A DNA stretch of 64,000 nt from Bacteroidota bacterium. GTDB lineage: Bacteria; Bacteroidota; Bacteroidia; Chitinophagales; Chitinophagaceae. Below are positions 2,245-15,748 of this stretch, one piece after another; the stretch's first letter is position 1; each line of letters opens with the position of its first letter. The position numbers were made by a program, and so were the translations under genes. Below the pieces are notes generated by a model. That model ran no database searches and had not been told where the DNA came from. It worked only from the letters and a program-made list of their open reading frames with translations. The stretch lies in contig CANFOM010000006.1 in the NCBI GenBank assembly GCA_947448725.1, positions 62,001 to 126,000 of the forward strand, written 5' to 3'.

Positions 2245-5200
2245 ATGAGAGTTATTATTCTGATGCTTTTTATGGCCCTTGGTTTAACGCAGGCAAATGC
2301 ACAAATTAAAGCCACTCCTCAAAAAGACAGCACCCAATTTTCTAGTTTCAAAGGATTGCCTTTAAAAGCAACTAGGGCTATCCCTATTAAAACCAGCGAA
2401 GGTACCTGGACTTCACTTAGTATTAGTCCAGATGGTAAAACCATTTTATTTGATTTAATGGGAGATATTTATAGTCTTCCTATGGAAGGCGGTAAAGCCA
2501 CTGCTGTTACAAAGGGTATTGCCTATGACAATCATCCAAGTTTTAGCCCTGATGGTAAAAGAATTTTATTTATCTCCGATAGAGGTGGTGCTGAAAACTT
2601 ATGGTATATAGATATTGCCAAAAAAGATACCGTCGCATTAACCGAAGAAAATAATCAAAATTTTCCAGGTGCTATTTATACACCAGATGGTAACTATATA
2701 GTTTATACCAAAGGTAGAAGAAATACAAAATTGTATTTGATGCATAAAAATGGCGGAGCAGGCACACAACTAATTGCTACTCCCGCTAGTTTAAAAACTA
2801 TTGACCCTGCTGTAAGTGCAGATGGTCGTTATATTTATTACTCTGCAAGAACAAGTGCTTGGAATTACAATGCCATGTTACCACAATATAGCATTGGTAT
2901 GTATGATAGAGAAAAAGGAATAACTCGTGTGATTGCATCAAGATATGGTTCTGCTTTTACACCCGTACTTTCTAAAGATGGTAAATGGATGGTTTATGGT
3001 ACAAGATTTGAAGACAAAACTGGATTGGTAAAACGTAATTTAGCAACAGGAGAAGAAAACTGGTTGGCTTATCCAGTGCAAAGAGACGATCAGGAATCGA
3101 TTGCAGTATTAGGTGTATTACCTACGATGGCTTTTACGCCTGATAGTAAATCTTTATTGGCCTCTTATGGTGGAAAAATACACAGTATTAATATTGAAAC
3201 GGCAGAACAAAAAGAAATTAATTACACGGTAGATGCCACCATTGAAATGGGGCCTGAGGTATTATTTAAATACCCTGTAAAAGATACCAGTGCGGCACAA
3301 GCCACACAAATAAGAGATGCAGTGCCTTCTCCCGATGGAAAAAAATTAGCCTTTACCGTATTAAATAAATTATACGTGATGGACTATCCCAATGGTACTC
3401 CTAAAAAAATAACCAATAATAATTTTACAGAAGCACAGCCTTGTTGGAGTATGGACGGCAACCTTATTTACTTTGCCACCTGGAATGAGGATGGCGGTAG
3501 CATTAGACTCATTGACTTAGCTAGCAACAAAGAAACTACACTAACCAAAGAAAATGCATTATACCAAGGATTGGCAATGGATCCTACAGGTAAAAAATTA
3601 GTTTTTAATAGAACTGCAACTCAAAAATTTAAAGATTCCAAAGATCCTACTTACAATGATGATGAAGATGAATTGTGTTGGTTAGATGTAAGTAATGGCA
3701 GCGTTCATGTTATTGACAAAGCCAATGGAAGAAACAATGCTCATTTTGTAAATGGAGAGAATCGCATTTACTTAAATAATAATGGAAAATTAATTTCTAT
3801 TCAATGGGATGGTGGAGATGAAAAAGAAATTGTAAAAATTACGGGTATTACTACATTTGGTAGCATTGCACAACACAAAGGAAAACCTGTGGCGGATGTC
3901 CTTGATATGGTGGATGAAGACGAGGATGCAGCTAAAGAAAATAATCCTGCATCAAGCGCGAATACCATTTTAATGTCTCCTTTAGGCAAAGTGGCAATTG
4001 CACAAGTAAATAATAATATTTATTATATCACTATTCCACAAGCTGGCAAAATAGTTGATATTTCTGTAGCAGATGCAAAAAATGCAGCCTTCCCAAGTAA
4101 ATTATTAACAGAGATGGGTGGAGAATTTCCAAGTTGGGAAGCCAATGGAAAAATTATTCACTACAGCTTAGGCGCCGCACATTTTACTTATGATGTTGAT
4201 GCCTCTTATGCCTTTGACGATAGCTTAGCAACTGCAAAAAAAGCCGAAGCTGCTATGAAAAAAGAAGTGGTTATCAAAGACAGCAGTATGAAAGACAGTA
4301 CTAAAAAAGAAATTGTTGCGAAGAAAGCCGAAAAGAAAGAAGATCCAAAATACAAAGCCGCTGAAAACTGGGTAAAAGTATTTTATGAAAAAGATATGCC
4401 TACCACACACCTCCTTTTAACCAATGCAAGAATCATCACCATGAAAGGCGATGAAGTAATTACTAGAGGTGATATTTATATAGTGAACAATCGTATCAAA
4501 GCCATTGGAAAATCGGGAAGTTTAAAAGTGGCTGCAGAAACTCAAAAAGTAAATGTAGCAGGCAAAACTATTATTCCTGGTTTTGTAGATACCCATTCAC
4601 ATATGTGGCCAAGCTGGGGCATTCATAAAACCCAAGCTTGGGTATATGCCGCTAATTTAGCTTATGGTGTTACCACTACACGTGATCCTCAAACCGCTAC
4701 TACAGATGTACTTACTTATAGCGACATGGTGGATGCCGGTATGATGGTTGGACCAAGAGTTTATTCAACAGGACCTGGTGTTGGCTATTGGGCCTACAAC
4801 TTAAAAGATTCTGCACAAGCAGAGTCGGTATTAAGTCAATACAGCAAATACTACAATACAAAATATATTAAAATGTATTTAGTAGGTAATCGTAAACATA
4901 GACAATGGGTTATTCAAGCTGCTAAAAATCAGCAATTGATGCCTACTACCGAAGGTGGTCTTGATTTTAAATTAAACATGACTAATTTATTAGATGGCTA
5001 TCCTGGACACGAACATTCTATTCCAATTTATCCATTATACAATGATGTTATCAAAACTATTTCGGCATCTAAAATGATCGTAACGCCAACTTTACTAGTT
5101 TCTTATGGTGGACCATGGGCAGAAAATTATTACTACGAAAATGAAAATCCATACAGCAATGAGAAGATGCAATTTTTTACACCTTATGAAGAATTAGCTG

Positions 5201-6708: not shown

Positions 6709-8901
6709 ATGAAAAATATTTTAATGGGTTTGCTTAGTTTACTAGTATTGACCTGCATTAATGATGTTGCGCAAGCTCAACAAATTAATGCAGTAGATTT
6801 AGCCAGATGGAATAAGCATGCCAATCAAGTTAAAATTATTAGAGACGAATGGGATATCCCTCATATTTATGGCAAGACAGATGCCGATGCCATTTTTGGT
6901 TTAATGTATGCCCAATGCGAAGAGAATTTTGATCAAATAGAATTGAACTACTTAGAAATGCTAGGACGTACTGCCGAAGTTAAAGGGGATAAAGCTATCT
7001 ATGAGGATTTAATGATGCGTCTGATTCAAGATAGTGCCGAAGCGATTAAAGATTTTAACAATAGCCCTATTTGGTTTAAAAATTTACTACAAGCACATGC
7101 CGATGGTTTAAATTATTATTTATACAAACATCCCAAAGTGCATCCTAAAGCGATTGCCTATTTTAAGCCCTGGTATCATTTAATGTGGACCGATGGAAGT
7201 GTCTCTCCAACAAGAACAGGTGGTATCACCACAGAAGATGTTGCTGGTTTTTATGGAGAAAAAAATAAGCTAGCCATTCATTCCAGCCCAAATTTTGAAG
7301 AAAAAGTAAGTACAGGTTCCAATGGCTTTGCGATTGCACCCATGCATAGTAAAAATGGAAATGCATTATTGTACATTAACCCACATGTACCTTTTTATTT
7401 TAGAACTGAAATGCATATGAATAGCGAAGAGGGTTTAAATGTTTATGGTGCAGTTACCTGGGGTCAAATGTTTATTTACCAAGGTTTCAATGAAAAATGT
7501 GGATGGATGCATACCAGCAGCTATGCAGATGTAGCCGATGTCTATGAAGAAAAAATTAAACAAAATAAAAAAGGCTGGGTATCTATCTATGAAAAAGAAG
7601 AAAAAGAAATTACCCAAAGAACCATACATATAAAATATAGCGAAGCAGGCCTGATGCAATCAAAATCATTTAATACTTATAAAACAATTCATGGCCCGGT
7701 GATGGGCAGTAAAAATGGCAATTGGTTAAGCCTTCAAGAAAACAATCGTTCTTTAAATGCTTTAATGGAGTGTTGGATTAGAACCAAAGCAAGCAATTTA
7801 AAATCCTATCAAAAAGCATTGTCCTTACTAGCCAATAATAGCAACAACACAGTTTTTGCAGATGGAGAAGGCAATATTGCTTATTGGCATGGAAATTATA
7901 TGCCTAAAAGAAATACCAATTACGATTATAGCTTGCCCTTAGATGGATCTATTGCAAGCACCAACTGGAAAGGCATTCATTCCTTAAATGAAATCGTACA
8001 AAGCATCAATCCACCCAATGGATGGTTGCAAAATTGCAATGCCACTCCTTTTACAGTAGCCGGAATCAATAGTCCCAAGGCCAATCAGTATCCCGCTTAC
8101 ATGGCCCCAGAGGGTGAAAATGGCCGAGGCATTACTGCTGTAAAGCTGTTAGAAAAAATTGATAAAATAAGTTTGGAGGAATTAATCCATCTTGGATACA
8201 ATAAACACATGTCGGCCTTTGACGTTTTATTGCCTTCTTTTTTAGACTTTGTAAAAACTATTTCGCTCAATGAAAAAGAAAAGAAAGCCATTCAATATTT
8301 AAGCAATTGGAATCATGATGGTGATACGGCTTCCATTGCAACCACCATTGCAATTGAATGGGCTACCGAATGGGTCAAAGAATTACCTCCAGCACCTACC
8401 GAAGAAACAAGCACCCATATTTGGAAAAAATATGAACGAATGGTTACTGCCATATCCAATGAAAAAAAATTAGAACTTTTAAATAAAACATTGGCGCAAT
8501 TAGAAAAAATATATGGTACCTGGGAAATAAGTTGGGGTAGCATTAATAGATATCAAAGAGTTGATCCAGGAGAAAAGTTTGATGATCAATTGCCTAGTTT
8601 AGCAGTTGCTCAAGCTTCTTCCAAATGGGGTACCCTTCCAGCTTTTGAGAGTAAAAGACAAGAGTATACCCATAAAAGATATGGTTATTCGGGAAGTAGT
8701 TTTATTGCAGCTATTAGTTTTGGGAAAAAACTAGAAGCTAAAACAATCATCACTGGAGGACAAAGTCGTTTTGCTAAGTCAAGTCATTTCACGGATCAAG
8801 CTCAAAAATACCTGGAAGGTGATTTTAAAACCATTCACTTTTATAAAGAAGATGTTTTAGCACATGAAGTAATATCATATAAACCTGGATTCACAAGGTA
8901 A
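6709..8901 (+). CDS. Penicillin acylase family protein (Ntn hydrolase)
   Basis: 730 aa; RDEWDIPHIYGKTDADAIFGLMYAQCEENFDQIE and STGSNGFAIAPMHSKNGNALLYINPHVPF (nucleophile Ser region). Confidence 0.88.
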   Translation: MKNILMGLLSLLVLTCINDVAQAQQINAVDLARWNKHANQVKIIRDEWDIPHIYGKTDADAIFGLMYAQCEENFDQIELNYLEMLGRTAEVKGDKAIYEDLMMRLIQDSAEAIKDFNNSPIWFKNLLQAHADGLNYYLYKHPKVHPKAIAYFKPWYHLMWTDGSVSPTRTGGITTEDVAGFYGEKNKLAIHSSPNFEEKVSTGSNGFAIAPMHSKNGNALLYINPHVPFYFRTEMHMNSEEGLNVYGAVTWGQMFIYQGFNEKCGWMHTSSYADVADVYEEKIKQNKKGWVSIYEKEEKEITQRTIHIKYSEAGLMQSKSFNTYKTIHGPVMGSKNGNWLSLQENNRSLNALMECWIRTKASNLKSYQKALSLLANNSNNTVFADGEGNIAYWHGNYMPKRNTNYDYSLPLDGSIASTNWKGIHSLNEIVQSINPPNGWLQNCNATPFTVAGINSPKANQYPAYMAPEGENGRGITAVKLLEKIDKISLEELIHLGYNKHMSAFDVLLPSFLDFVKTISLNEKEKKAIQYLSNWNHDGDTASIATTIAIEWATEWVKELPPAPTEETSTHIWKKYERMVTAISNEKKLELLNKTLAQLEKIYGTWEISWGSINRYQRVDPGEKFDDQLPSLAVAQASSKWGTLPAFESKRQEYTHKRYGYSGSSFIAAISFGKKLEAKTIITGGQSRFAKSSHFTDQAQKYLEGDFKTIHFYKEDVLAHEVISYKPGFTR

Positions 8902-9821: not shown

Positions 9822-10940
9822 TTGACATCAATTCGTAACTTATTTTACCCTTTTGTTCCAGTAGGACATTTGAAAGTGTGGGTCTTAGCCCCAGCCTTGG
9901 ATAATCCAGATCCCAATTTGGCCTACTATTATGACTTTAGTCAAAGTATTGAAGAATATACACGCGTATTTGAACAATTAGATTTGCCCTGGAAATGGCA
10001 ACCCGTTTCTTTAGAAACTTATAAAACCGTTGTTCAAGAAATTGCACATGAAAGAGAAAAAGGAATTTACTTTCCTGTTGTTTTAAATTTATGTGATGGA
10101 GATGAAATTAATGGCGCTCCTGGGGTATCTGTCATTAAAGCATTAGATGCAAAGCAATTGGTGTACACTGGAGCCAATGATTATTTTTACGATATCACTA
10201 CTTCTAAAATTCCAATGAAAGAGGCTTTTGATATAGCTGGTGTAGCTACTCCAAAATGGGAAGCCATTAGAACCAATGATGTAAATGTGCACGATGTGCT
10301 TGAAAATTTAGGCAGCCCTGTGATTGTGAAGCCTGCTGTTTCTGGAGGAAGTTTAGGTGTAGGTGTAAAAAATGTAGTAGAAACACCCAAAGAATTAAAA
10401 GTGCAATTAGCAAAAATGTTCGAAGGCTATCGAGGCTGGAACCTAGCATCAGATGGAATCTTAGCAGAATCCTTTATCGAAGGGCCAGAGTATACCGTGA
10501 TGATTGTAGGTAGCCATACCCATCCAGAATACGCAAAAATTTATCCGCCCATTGAAAGAGTATTTCATGCATCTCTTCCTGAAAAAGAAAAGTTTTTATC
10601 TTTTGATCGTTTATGGGAAATATATGAAGAAGAAACCCCTATGCCTGAGGAAGAAAATTTTTATCAATATCAATTAGGGGATGAATCCATTCAAATGGCG
10701 GTTCAAAAAATTTCTTGGGATGCTTATGTGGCTGTAAATGGCACTGGCTATACCAGGGTAGATGTTCGTATTTGTAATAAAACAGGCATCCCCTATGTTT
10801 TAGAAGTGAATGCACAATGCGGTATCAGTGAAGATGAAAATTTTACTTCTATTGGTGCTATTTTAAGATATGCCAATCAAAGTTTCACAGAATTAGTAGT
10901 ACATATTATTAATGACGCATTTGTAAGAAGAAAAAATTAA
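9822..10940 (+). CDS. ATP-grasp ligase, D-Ala-D-Ala ligase-like
   Basis: 372 aa; SPVIVKPAVSGGSLGVGVKNV, ILAESFIEGPEYTVMI, GYTRVDVRICNKTGIPYVLEVNAQCG; TTG start. Confidence 0.82.
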   Translation: MTSIRNLFYPFVPVGHLKVWVLAPALDNPDPNLAYYYDFSQSIEEYTRVFEQLDLPWKWQPVSLETYKTVVQEIAHEREKGIYFPVVLNLCDGDEINGAPGVSVIKALDAKQLVYTGANDYFYDITTSKIPMKEAFDIAGVATPKWEAIRTNDVNVHDVLENLGSPVIVKPAVSGGSLGVGVKNVVETPKELKVQLAKMFEGYRGWNLASDGILAESFIEGPEYTVMIVGSHTHPEYAKIYPPIERVFHASLPEKEKFLSFDRLWEIYEEETPMPEEENFYQYQLGDESIQMAVQKISWDAYVAVNGTGYTRVDVRICNKTGIPYVLEVNAQCGISEDENFTSIGAILRYANQSFTELVVHIINDAFVRRKN

Positions 10941-10944
10941 AATT

Positions 10945-12390
10945 ATGCGTGCCCTTCCCATATTGAATCAAACAGAAAGTTTTAAAGATTTAAAAATTTG
11001 CGTTCTTCAACCCGACTATTCTACATCTGGTGTCGATTATCAATATTACGATCCCAAGAGAGACTTGTCGGCTATTATGCCAGAAGCACATATCGATCAT
11101 ATTTATTTAAATAAGTTAACCACCTACCAGCAGTTAAAAGAATTAAAGGATAAAAACTATGATATCTATATTAATCTATGTGAAGGTTATTTAGAATGGA
11201 AAGTGCCTTCTATTGATGTTATTATAAGCATGGATTTATTAGGATTGCCTTATACTGGGCCCAATGCGAACTTATATGACCCGCCAAAAACCATTATGAA
11301 GTATTTGGCTTTTTGTGAAGATGTGGTTACCCCAGCGCATGTGCTTATTGAATCTTTGGAAGATTTAGATCAATTGCCTGGTAATTTAAAATTTCCATTA
11401 TTTGTAAAACCTGCTAAAGCGGGAGATAGCTTAGGAGTGGATGACGCTTCTAAAGCAAACAATATCGAGGACTTAGTAGTAAAGGTAAAGAACATAGTGT
11501 CCGAATTTGGTTCGGCCTTGGTGGAAGAATACATTGATGGACGAGAATTTACCGTATTGGTTTGTGGCAATGCAGATGGAAAAACTTGTACCAGTTTTGT
11601 TCCGGTTGAATATATTTTCCCTGAAGGTTTTAGTTTTAAAACCTACGCTTTAAAAACATCCGAATTACATCCTACAGCCAATATCCCTGTTACGGAAACG
11701 GCCTTAGCCAATCAATTAAAAAGTATTGCAGAGCAAGTTTTTATGTCTTTTAATGGAGTGGGTTACGGAAGAATGGATTTTAGAATGAATGACAAAGGCG
11801 AAATTTTCTTCTTAGAAATAAATTTTACCTGCTCCGTTTTTTATGCGAAAGGTTATGAAGGATCGGCCGATTATATTTTACTACATGATGGTATTGGACA
11901 AAGAGGCTTCTTAGAAAGAATTATTATTGAGGGCATGTCAAGGTATAGTAGAAAAGAAAAATTATTTACGATTAAAGGAAATGCCATTGCTGGTTATGGT
12001 ATGTATGCAAAATGGGATTTGCCTAAAAATACTTTATTGTTTAAAGGGGAAGAAAAATCACAACGCATTGTAAGTAAAAAATTCGTTGATGAAAATTGGG
12101 ACGAAAGAGAAAAATTAAATTTCAGAAGATACGCCTACCCTATTAGTTCAGAAGTATATATTTTATGGGATTTGCAACCCGAAGAGTGGTCGCCACAAAA
12201 TCATCACTGCGATGCTAATTGTACATACAAAGGATTGAACTTATATGTCAATAGAGACATTAAAAAAGGAGAAGAACTTACTTTGGATTATGGTAGTTTC
12301 TTAGATGAAACCATGGAGCCTTTTAATTGCCATTGTGGTGCTCCTAATTGCCGTGGGCTTATTAAGGGTACGGCTAAAATAAAAGGATAG
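10945..12390 (+). CDS. ATP-grasp ligase fused to C-terminal SET methyltransferase domain
   Basis: 481 aa; ATP-grasp motifs FPLFVKPAKAGDSLGVDD, LVEEYIDGREFTVLVCG, GYGRMDFRMNDKGEIFFLEINFTC; SET motifs GYGMYAKWDLPKNTLLFKGE, NHHCDANCTY, GEELTLDYGSF and post-SET CHCGAPNCRG. Confidence 0.85.
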   Translation: MRALPILNQTESFKDLKICVLQPDYSTSGVDYQYYDPKRDLSAIMPEAHIDHIYLNKLTTYQQLKELKDKNYDIYINLCEGYLEWKVPSIDVIISMDLLGLPYTGPNANLYDPPKTIMKYLAFCEDVVTPAHVLIESLEDLDQLPGNLKFPLFVKPAKAGDSLGVDDASKANNIEDLVVKVKNIVSEFGSALVEEYIDGREFTVLVCGNADGKTCTSFVPVEYIFPEGFSFKTYALKTSELHPTANIPVTETALANQLKSIAEQVFMSFNGVGYGRMDFRMNDKGEIFFLEINFTCSVFYAKGYEGSADYILLHDGIGQRGFLERIIIEGMSRYSRKEKLFTIKGNAIAGYGMYAKWDLPKNTLLFKGEEKSQRIVSKKFVDENWDEREKLNFRRYAYPISSEVYILWDLQPEEWSPQNHHCDANCTYKGLNLYVNRDIKKGEELTLDYGSFLDETMEPFNCHCGAPNCRGLIKGTAKIKG

Positions 12391-12483
12391 TGCGCTCTGT
12401 TTAAGCTACTTATTTTTTAAAAATATATTGCGTTTTATTTATTGTGCATTTTCACGTAACTTAATAGTAACGATTGCTTGCTT

Positions 12484-13191
12484 ATGGGTAAATATCAACC
12501 ACCTGCTTTTATTGAACCCTTCTCTCCTTTTTGGTGGGAATGTATGCTGGTGGTTACCTTAATTATTGTTTTGGTAGTAAGGCTTCCTCTGCATTTTAAA
12601 AAATTACAGCATAAAAATTACGCTACCTTTTTAGCCATTTTTTTTATGATTAGTTTTATTATCGAAAACTATTATAATTTGATACATGGTTTTTGGAATC
12701 TTAAACAACATTTGCCAGTTCACTTATGTTGCATTAGTTATTTTATGTGTGTTGCTTTACTACTAAATTACAAACAGTGGCTAGCAGAATGTCTTTATTA
12801 TTGGGGATTGGCTGGGGGCATTCATGCTATGCTTACACCAGAATTTACTGTGGGGATGGAGGGGTATAATTTTTATGCTTATTTTATTGACCATGGAGGC
12901 CTCTTACTCGTGGTTGCCTATATGATTGTTCATTTAAATTTTAGGCCAAGGCCAAGATCTTGGATTTGGGTATTGGGCTATACCCAATTAGTAGCCATTG
13001 GTGTAAGTGTTGTCAATTATAGTGTTGGGGCCAATTATATGTATTTATCTGCAAAGCCCGCAGTCAACAATCCATTTGTAATTGGCGAATGGCCCTATTA
13101 TATTCTTATACTTGAGGCTGTTGCAGTACTTCATTTTTTGGCTTTCTATTGGCCCTTTCATAAAAAGAATAAAGCCCTAATAAAGGCTTAA
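12484..13191 (+). CDS. TIGR02206/YwaF-like integral membrane protein
   Basis: ORF track start 12478 is TTG; in-frame ATG at 12484; multiple TM helices with HGFWNLKQHLPVHLCCISYFMCVALLL and LAGGIHAMLTPE. Confidence 0.7.
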   Translation: MGKYQPPAFIEPFSPFWWECMLVVTLIIVLVVRLPLHFKKLQHKNYATFLAIFFMISFIIENYYNLIHGFWNLKQHLPVHLCCISYFMCVALLLNYKQWLAECLYYWGLAGGIHAMLTPEFTVGMEGYNFYAYFIDHGGLLLVVAYMIVHLNFRPRPRSWIWVLGYTQLVAIGVSVVNYSVGANYMYLSAKPAVNNPFVIGEWPYYILILEAVAVLHFLAFYWPFHKKNKALIKA

Positions 13192-13533
13192 TTAAATTTC
13201 TTCAATCCTTTTGGCTTTATCATCTATCACTAAATCAAAATTAGGTTTGGTAGGACTTCCATTGGGGCAATAGCCAGTAATTAATTCATTAAATTTACAC
13301 CCCCATTGATTTAATTGACTAAGTGTTAATGCTCTTAAATCTCTTTTGGAGCTTTCCCCACGTCCCGTCCAATAAGTAATATGCCAGCCTTCCTCAAACA
13401 ACTTATTAATTTTAGCAATATGTTCAAAATTGGGCTCGGCTAATTCATAGACCCGCTTATCCGAGTAAAAGCAGATAGTTTCATCAATATCAACTAAAGC
13501 TTTCTTAGAACCAAACCTTTTAGACTCGATCAT
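13192..13533 (-). CDS. Small HAD-superfamily phosphatase-like protein
   Basis: 113 aa; KKALVDIDETICFYSD (DxDxT-like), WHITYWTGRGESSKRD, DLVIDDKAKRI. Confidence 0.72.
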   Translation of the reverse strand: MIESKRFGSKKALVDIDETICFYSDKRVYELAEPNFEHIAKINKLFEEGWHITYWTGRGESSKRDLRALTLSQLNQWGCKFNELITGYCPNGSPTKPNFDLVIDDKAKRIEEI

Positions 13534-13672
13534 TGTTATGTATTTTAAATGTATTAAACTGAGGCAAATTTAGATAGTTTCTATAAATTACAGCTTGCAT
13601 TTTATTGCCCACTAAAATCATATATAAAAAACTAGCCCTTTTCAAATTTTGAACAAAATTAACCCTTCCATT

Positions 13673-15748
13673 ATGAGATTATTTTTTTTATCACTTTTTG
13701 TAGGTCTACTACAATTAGCCTCTGCTCAAAACACTAGCAATCCTACTATAAGAACTGATAAAATCACCATTGCACGGGATGCCTATGGCGTCCCTCATAT
13801 TTTTGCACCCACCGACCCAGAAGTAGCGTATGGATTGGCTTGGGCGCATGCCGAAGATGATTTTACCACCATTCAAACCCTGATGCTTACTGGTAAAGGA
13901 AAGTTGGCCACCTATCTTGGAAAAAAAGGAGCACCTATTGATTATGTAGTAGGCTTACTTAATACCAAGGCTACTGTGATGGCACAAATAGATCAAATGG
14001 ATCCCGCTTTTTTACAATTGGTTCGTGGGTATTTATTGGGTTTAGAGGCTTATGCAAAAGCACACCCAAAGGATATACTCAATAAGAATGTATTTCCTAT
14101 TAGCATAGAAGAATATTTATCAGCCACTGTTTTTTCAGTAGCTGTATTTTGTGGTGTAGATAAAGCCTTGCCAAAAATCTTAAATGGTACCATCCCAGCT
14201 TTACCTGGTTTTACAGGAGAAGGAAGCAATTCCATTGCAGTGCATTCCAGCAAATCCGCTTCTGGTGAAAATATGTTACTCATTAATGCGCATCAACCCA
14301 TTGAAGGCGCTACTGCTTTTTATGAAGCACATCTTCAAAGTGAAGAAGGATGGAATATTTTAGGAGGATTGTTTCCAGGTGCGCCCTTAATATTTCATGG
14401 TGTTACCCCAAATTTAGCATGGGCGCATACAGTGAACTTGCAAGATAAAATTGATGTCTATCAATTGCAAACCGATAAACAACATCCAGGACAATACAAA
14501 GTGGATGGAGAATGGCTGAAGCTTGAAAAAAGAAAAATAAAATTAAGTATCAAGGGTATTCCATTTCCAATTTATAAAACAGCCTATACTTCTATCTATG
14601 GGCCAACTGCAGCCACACCTAGTGGTGAATATTTTTCGATGCGCTTACCTTCTTTAATGGATGCGGGTGCTTTGCAACAATGGTATGGGATGAATAAGGC
14701 ACAAAATTTTACGCAATTCAAAGCTGCCTTAACACAGAACCATTTACCTATGTTTAATATTGTATACGCCGACAAAAGCGATACTATCTTTTATATTTCC
14801 AATGGGAAAATGCCCTATCGTAATGCAGATACCAGCTACCATTGGAATTCCACTTTGCCGGGTAATACTCGAGCAACACTTTGGACTAAGTTTAAACCTT
14901 TAAGTGCATTGCCTCAATACTTAAATCCAAAAAGTGGTTACTTATTTAATACCAATCATTCGCCTTTTTTAGCCACTGCCGAAAATGAAAATTTAAACCC
15001 TGCCAATTTTGACGCTTACGATGGATATGAATTGGTCCATAACAACCGCAGTCGACGTGCCAAAGATTTAATTGACCAATTAGATAAGTTTAGTTACGCC
15101 GATTTAAAACGCATCAAATTTGATCGTCAACTTCCTGCTACAATTTTATACCCTTATGGATATACAGCAGATACTTTATTTATGCTGGATGAAAATAAGT
15201 ATCCGCAGTTAGCACCCCTTATTGCAAGTTTAAAAAAATGGGACCATCAAGCCATTGCCGAAAGCAATGGTGCACTCATTTATAATCTAGCCTATTATTA
15301 TGTACCTAAATTAATGAAAGACCATAAGAATGATAAATTGACTACCGAAGAAGCGGTGGCTACTTTTGAGTACATCTATCAATTCTTAATGAAAAATTAC
15401 CAACGCTTAGATGTTACCCTTGGAGAAGTACAACGCTTGGTAAGAGGAGAGGAGAACTGGCCACAAAGCGGCATGCCCGATGTTTTGGCTGCTGTACAAA
15501 CTGAACCTTTTGGTGAAGCACAACGTAAAATGAATAGCGGAGATGCTTATATTGGATTTGTTCGCTTTCCCAAAGATGGCAGCTTGCCTTTAATTGAAAC
15601 AGTGAATACTTTTGGTGCAAGCTCCGTAAAAGGTAGTCCACATTATGCCGATCAAAGAGCCATGTACCAAGCACAACAAGTAAAAAAAATGACTTTGGAT
15701 AAAGAGGAAGTACTCAAAAAGGCAGAACGGACTTATCATCCTCAATAA
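13673..15748 (+). CDS. Penicillin acylase family protein (second copy)
   Basis: ORF from TTG 13649; likely ATG (MRLFFLSLFVG signal peptide) at 13673; RDAYGVPHIFAPTDPEVAYGLAWAHAEDDF; GEGSNSIAVHSSKSASGENMLLINAHQP. Confidence 0.88.
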   Translation: MRLFFLSLFVGLLQLASAQNTSNPTIRTDKITIARDAYGVPHIFAPTDPEVAYGLAWAHAEDDFTTIQTLMLTGKGKLATYLGKKGAPIDYVVGLLNTKATVMAQIDQMDPAFLQLVRGYLLGLEAYAKAHPKDILNKNVFPISIEEYLSATVFSVAVFCGVDKALPKILNGTIPALPGFTGEGSNSIAVHSSKSASGENMLLINAHQPIEGATAFYEAHLQSEEGWNILGGLFPGAPLIFHGVTPNLAWAHTVNLQDKIDVYQLQTDKQHPGQYKVDGEWLKLEKRKIKLSIKGIPFPIYKTAYTSIYGPTAATPSGEYFSMRLPSLMDAGALQQWYGMNKAQNFTQFKAALTQNHLPMFNIVYADKSDTIFYISNGKMPYRNADTSYHWNSTLPGNTRATLWTKFKPLSALPQYLNPKSGYLFNTNHSPFLATAENENLNPANFDAYDGYELVHNNRSRRAKDLIDQLDKFSYADLKRIKFDRQLPATILYPYGYTADTLFMLDENKYPQLAPLIASLKKWDHQAIAESNGALIYNLAYYYVPKLMKDHKNDKLTTEEAVATFEYIYQFLMKNYQRLDVTLGEVQRLVRGEENWPQSGMPDVLAAVQTEPFGEAQRKMNSGDAYIGFVRFPKDGSLPLIETVNTFGASSVKGSPHYADQRAMYQAQQVKKMTLDKEEVLKKAERTYHPQ

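Follow-up and report, generated by a model that had tools for sequence, protein, structure and literature searches.

An ATP-grasp ligase gene paired with a ligase-SET fusion gene in Chitinophagaceae and other bacteria, and the standalone SET protein that co-occurs with them

The gene pair and its encoded domains

The window (the entire 64,000-nucleotide stretch of Chitinophagaceae DNA that was analyzed) carries two adjacent genes, here called LG1 and LGSET, whose features are given in Table 1. A preliminary description made from the sequence alone had read them as two ORFs 4 bp apart, both with ATP-grasp motifs; coordinates and strand were verified, and the Pfam domain Dala_Dala_lig_C was identified in each product (LG1, E = 1.1e-16; LGSET, E = 6.5e-22). 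The start codon of LG1 is TTG, and because the aligned codon in close relatives is either TTG or ATG, the 372-amino-acid model is credible.

Table 1. Features of the LG1-LGSET locus, in window coordinates
Feature	Position	Strand	Basis
LG1, stand-alone ATP-grasp ligase, 372 aa, D-Ala-D-Ala ligase superfamily, not Ddl	9822..10940	+	
LG1/LGSET intergenic gap, 4 bp	10941..10944		Adjacency of genes kept in relatives
LGSET, ATP-grasp ligase with predicted C-terminal SET methyltransferase domain, 481 aa	10945..12390	+	Pfam, AF2, 72 loci
LGSET ATP-grasp catalytic region	11362..11823	+	Pfam match, residues 140-293
LGSET SET domain, residues 350-450 (GxG, NHxCxxN, Tyr449)	11992..12294	+	PF00856 full profile
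LGSET post-SET zinc-type cysteine motif CHCGAPNCRG, residues 462-471	12328..12357	+	C462, C464, C469 invariant

All of the SET signature elements previously described (GYGMYA, NHHCDANC, GEELTLDYG and the post-SET motif) were found in LGSET. The SET profile PF00856, named beforehand as the test of this assignment, matched the C terminus at 40.5 bits (E = 4e-10; cut-off, 22.4 bits) over profile positions 1 to 105. Across 23 divergent homologues, K170, R312, D314, E328 and N330 of LG1 were invariant, as were K155, E194, R276, D278, E291 and N293 of the LGSET ATP-grasp domain and G350, G352, N419, H420, C422 and Y449 of its SET domain. The post-SET CxCx4C motif was intact in these homologues, and N425, nearly invariant, was the sole exception among the SET and post-SET signature residues. 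Judged by these conserved catalytic residues, both halves of LGSET therefore look like active enzymes.

Confident AF2 models were obtained for LG1 (pLDDT, 86.5; pTM, 0.88) and LGSET (pLDDT, 83; pTM, 0.75). All of the best Foldseek matches to LG1 were structures of Ddl or D-Ala-D-Lac ligases. The top 50 matches to LGSET were of Ddl type only, and the identification of its SET half therefore rests on sequence, in which PF00856, GxG, NHxCxxN, the Tyr and the post-SET CxCx4C together point to a SET-domain methyltransferase. The Pfam gathering score, the fold and the ATP/Mg residues place both LG1 and LGSET in the Ddl-type ATP-grasp superfamily.

Both proteins resemble Ddl (PF07478) in fold (Foldseek E values, 1e-18 to 1e-19) and in the conserved ATP and Mg residues (Lys, Glu, RxD and ExN) but differ where Ddl contacts its substrates. 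The N-terminal Ddl signature (GGxSxExxxS/GGxSxEHEVS) is absent from LG1 and LGSET, as previously described, whereas the genome's own housekeeping Ddl, located away from the pair on contig 29 (169.8 bits), has the first-substrate signature GGLSSEAQIS. In addition, LHGxxGEDG of Ddl is replaced by NLC(D/E)G in both proteins. The Ddl loop NTxPG (NTxPGxT), which binds the carboxylate of the second substrate, is replaced by NAQCGxSEDE in LG1 and by NFTCSVFYxxGxEGSAD in LGSET. Invariant acidic residues occupy this loop in both proteins (D338/E339 in LG1; E305 and D309 in LGSET), which may imply a basic or cationic second substrate.

LG1 and LGSET scored 77.6 and 77.9 bits, respectively, against TIGR01205 (cut-off, 245.65 bits) and at most 92 bits against the NCBIfam Ddl models, which require at least 243. 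In a maximum likelihood tree, where nesting within Ddl had been proposed as a refuting test, LG1, LGSET and the more distant class II fusions described below grouped in a single clade (100/99) apart from every Ddl sequence. LG1 and the fusions appeared as sisters, a relationship that is likely but not secure because long branches meet there. A housekeeping or Van-type ligase was rejected on scores, signature and tree, which together with the separate genomic Ddl agree with the earlier judgment that neither protein is likely to act on the cell wall.

Distribution and partners of the fusion

A scan for LGSET relatives, using one genome per species, identified 72 loci with homologues of 54 to 98% identity. 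These were mostly from Chitinophagaceae (many of them freshwater MAGs), with others from Saprospiraceae and one from a Gemmatimonadota MAG. LG1 lay directly upstream of LGSET in 71 of the 71 loci with readable upstream sequence (70 counted by script; in L050 the contig ends within LG1, leaving a fragment), bearing out the operon-like pairing of the 372- and 481-amino-acid proteins. Pairwise comparisons of the ligase part of LGSET gave dN of 0.02 to 0.09 and dS of at least 0.4, with several dS values saturated; in the SET part dN was likewise far below dS where computable, which excluded two comparisons. Given this adjacency, the low dN relative to dS and the occurrence in several groups, the LG1-LGSET pair is real and not a product of chance or artifact. 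Among 396 genomes of the phylum, LG1 was confined to exactly the 6 with an LG1-associated (class I) LGSET. In a separate set of 150 Gemmatimonadota genomes, 15 carried the fusion. Carriage on plasmids or phages was considered and rejected, as matches there were to ATP-grasp only, at low identity (about 23 to 32%) and without the fusion. Anti-phage defense was likewise set aside, with no PADLOC matches for LG1, LGSET or the standalone SET protein described below.

A more distant fusion without LG1 (class II) was found in 11 of the 396 genomes (E values, about 1e-135 to 1e-143). Nine of these 11 are members of a single genus with the FMO antenna protein and are therefore green sulfur bacteria. 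In the three green sulfur genomes that were read, the cluster order was SET-LGSET-ABC transporter-second short SET (118 to 120 amino acids), the transporter here being a full one; in G205 the ABC frame was masked by a longer overlapping ORF. The extra SET gene, at 10756-11112 in L123 and 5812-6174 in L124, gives three SET modules per green sulfur cluster. Solitary fusions with no LG1 nearby were found in G211, G341 and three distant Gemmatimonadota genomes, and a strong standalone SET was absent from G211 and G341. From the class II and solitary forms, it follows that the fusion is the core, accompanied by LG1, the standalone SET and the transporter in combinations that vary by lineage.

In 13 divergent loci a gene for a standalone SET protein of ∼167 amino acids lies directly upstream of the pair, giving the order SET-LG1-LGSET. 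The genome that contains the window encodes an orthologue of 170 amino acids (209 bits) outside the window, on contig 23 (positions 4058-4570, minus strand). The standalone SET is likewise unlinked from the pair in G293 and further genomes, and in G212 SET-LG1 is at one locus and LGSET at another. The standalone SET was detected in 16 of the 396 genomes of the phylum, 15 of which carry LGSET, unlinked cases included. This co-occurrence was significant by genome (Fisher P = 4e-24) and by genus (P = 4e-10), the latter being the fairer figure because the genomes are related. In about ten class I MAGs the standalone SET was undetected, possibly owing to genome incompleteness. The earlier two-ORF reading thus holds for the pair itself but overlooked a standalone SET that travels with it, and the three proteins apparently form a conserved enzyme set across three bacterial groups.

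An ABC_membrane_3 gene (transmembrane part only) was found downstream of the pair in nine loci and also in G033 and G115; the Gemmatimonadota locus L190 has the order LG1-LGSET-ABC_membrane_3-SET. It is absent from the window's own genome. The same subfamily occurs in 3 of the 6 class I genomes yet also in G065, which lacks LGSET, and it is therefore regarded as accessory. Its presence suggests that some lineages, but not others, export a product or handle it at the membrane. Near 22 divergent loci, no conserved small ORF (precursor peptide) was found, and no dedicated amino-acid-modifying enzyme was consistently linked to the pair.

In the window's own lineage, flanking genes (among them a LuxR regulator, penicillin-acylase genes and a TMEM164-like acyltransferase) were not counted as parts of the system, their synteny being mainly in close relatives. 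Two genes of the penicillin-amidase family (PF01804) lie one on either side of the pair (window positions 6709-8901 and 13649-15748); they are syntenic in close relatives, and distant loci showed none in the pair's neighborhood. Directly downstream, positions 12478-13191 encode a TMEM164-related integral membrane acyltransferase (PF14808, TIGR02206) kept only in close relatives. The next ORF (13192-13533; 113 amino acids) has a HAD-like DIDETICF motif and no Pfam match and is syntenic in about 36 loci.

Proposed function and alternative explanations

On balance it seems probable, if not by much, that LG1, LGSET and the unlinked standalone SET constitute one small-molecule biosynthetic system. 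This proposal builds on the domains, invariant catalytic residues, conserved pairing and phyletic co-occurrence observed above, from which we infer a single shared pathway, free small-molecule substrates and an order of steps. The two Ddl-like ATP-grasp domains would activate a carboxylate with ATP to give an acyl phosphate, which would be joined to an amine, so that free substrates, probably similar to amino acids, become linked by one or two amide bonds. With S-adenosylmethionine as donor, the SET enzymes would methylate a side-chain N or S of either a free substrate or the amide product. The outcome would be a small metabolite resembling a methylated dipeptide or tripeptide, which the ABC transporter may export in lineages that have one. 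A small molecule is favored because both ligase domains match Ddl-type ligases of free amino acids in sequence and predicted fold, because the standalone SET profile is best matched by BurB, a free-methionine methyltransferase, and because ABC transporter genes are present in the clusters and a conserved small ORF is not. The three-part set is not universal, since class II fusions have no LG1 nearby and a strong standalone SET is missing from G211 and G341. Also counting against the proposal are the class I MAGs in which the standalone SET was undetected, the missing ABC_membrane_3 gene in the window's genome, the modest identity to BurB and the failure to find a consistently linked amino-acid-modifying enzyme.

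The preliminary description had allowed for either a small peptide or amino acid or a protein as the target; the evidence now favors the former, with the protein as the main alternative. Protein lysines are the substrates of most SET enzymes, and the gene for a protein target could be anywhere in the genome. On this view a cellular protein would receive an amino acid or peptide from the ATP-grasp domains, and the SET domains would methylate either the lysine so added or one close by, giving a composite post-translational mark; TTL-type ligases and the eukaryotic protein tubulin tyrosine ligase-like 12 (TTLL12) invite comparison. A eukaryotic fusion of SET-like and TTL domains is indeed known in TTLL12, but its domain order is reversed and inactivity in vitro has been reported (PMC3520985). 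This explanation is nonetheless unlikely, as the ATP-grasp domains are of Ddl rather than TTL or RimK type, the nearest solved relative of the standalone SET acts on a free amino acid, and the clusters contain ABC transporter genes.

Alternatively, only LG1 and LGSET could form a pathway, the standalone SET and ABC genes being functionally separate and carried along by lineage history. The counts do include related genomes, nine of them from one green sulfur genus, and some class I MAGs have no standalone SET. However, the association survives unlinking in the window's genome, G293 and G212, and it spans Chitinophagaceae, Saprospiraceae, green sulfur bacteria and Gemmatimonadota, making such independence quite improbable.

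Graspetides are defined by their ATP-grasp ligases (PMC8939145). Together with the clustered ABC transporter genes, this would accommodate RiPP maturation, in which a ribosomal peptide is macrocyclized or lengthened by the ligases and methylated by the SET domains. The lack of a conserved small ORF across the 22 divergent loci, and best family matches that were of Ddl type only, leave this with little probability. That the pair, as members of the Ddl superfamily, makes an altered peptidoglycan terminus in the manner of Van-type D-Ala-D-Lac or D-Ala-D-Ser ligases is least credible of all, given the separate true Ddl, the low Ddl model scores, the replaced N-terminal signature and NTxPGxT loop, and the tree position outside Ddl.

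Comparison with known systems

In openly accessible literature, the combination of ATP-grasp and SET domains was found only for TTLL12 and in one unrelated drug-target paper, and nothing was found for a D-Ala-D-Ala ligase with a SET domain. The enzyme superfamilies are known, and it is their combination and the conserved set that appear new. We propose, tentatively and at less than even confidence, that LGSET combines ligase and methyltransferase functions and stands at the center of a pathway conserved in Bacteroidota, green sulfur bacteria and Gemmatimonadota, one that would use only Ddl-like ligases and SET enzymes and lead to a new class of methylated amide-linked metabolites. To our knowledge, SET domains have been studied almost entirely as histone or protein lysine methyltransferases. 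If this bifunctional reading of LGSET is right, they would play a substantial further part in the metabolism of small molecules, and a second SET family tied to amino-acid ligases across phyla would broaden their known roles. The three proteins would offer a pathway open to direct testing, and because the system is carried by many freshwater Chitinophagaceae MAGs and by green sulfur bacteria, its product may be common in the environment.

Neighboring Ddl-like ATP-grasp genes of comparable length were also found as pairs in other genomes of the phylum (L104 and L107), but these have no SET domain and fall in separate clades of the tree. In L102, L104 and L107, SET-less tandem pairs of this kind stand beside a gene for a GNAT acetyltransferase, one for a lysine-2,3-aminomutase-like radical SAM protein, or both, and may represent a second family of amino-acid-ligase clusters. 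In seven further loci (L100, L101, L103, L105, L109, L110 and L111), a single Ddl-like ATP-grasp gene adjoins the gene for a protein starting SFYPQPNxYxCGPFALKYALVMLG, which looks like a candidate C39-type cysteine peptidase. On a Thioflavicoccus mobilis plasmid, an ATP-grasp gene (L114, 3812-4813) occurs with genes for SbnA, an ornithine-cyclodeaminase-like protein, a diaminobutyrate aminotransferase and KamA, possibly forming a diamino-acid peptide pathway.

TTLL12 likewise joins a SET-like domain and an ATP-grasp-type ligase domain in one polypeptide, with the SET-like domain N-terminal and the TTL-family domain C-terminal; in LGSET the SET domain is C-terminal and the ligase is of Ddl type. 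TTLL12 also lacks critical residues and activity in vitro (PMC3520985), whereas the catalytic residues of LGSET are invariant.

BurB (PDB 9l4t) is a SET-domain enzyme that converts free methionine to S-methylmethionine (PMC12542666) and was the sole characterized free-amino-acid SET enzyme found in the literature consulted. It was the best solved relative of the standalone SET profile (3.4e-19) over nearly its whole length (positions 18 to 145); MLL1 followed (6e-10), aligning over the post-SET part only. For the SET domain of LGSET, BurB was the best single SET match (2.5e-10), barely ahead of KMT2D (1.4e-9), which makes a kinship with BurB there only tentative. Like the standalone SET, which matches it over 128 profile positions at 26 to 32% identity, BurB is a short SET protein with post-SET cysteines. 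However, BurB has LHSC where the standalone SET keeps the canonical NHSC, and its His72 (a SAM contact) and Ser88 are not conserved, the aligned positions being mostly Leu. By these alignments the standalone SET appears similar in kind to BurB but not the same enzyme, and it differs further in that it belongs with ATP-grasp ligases.
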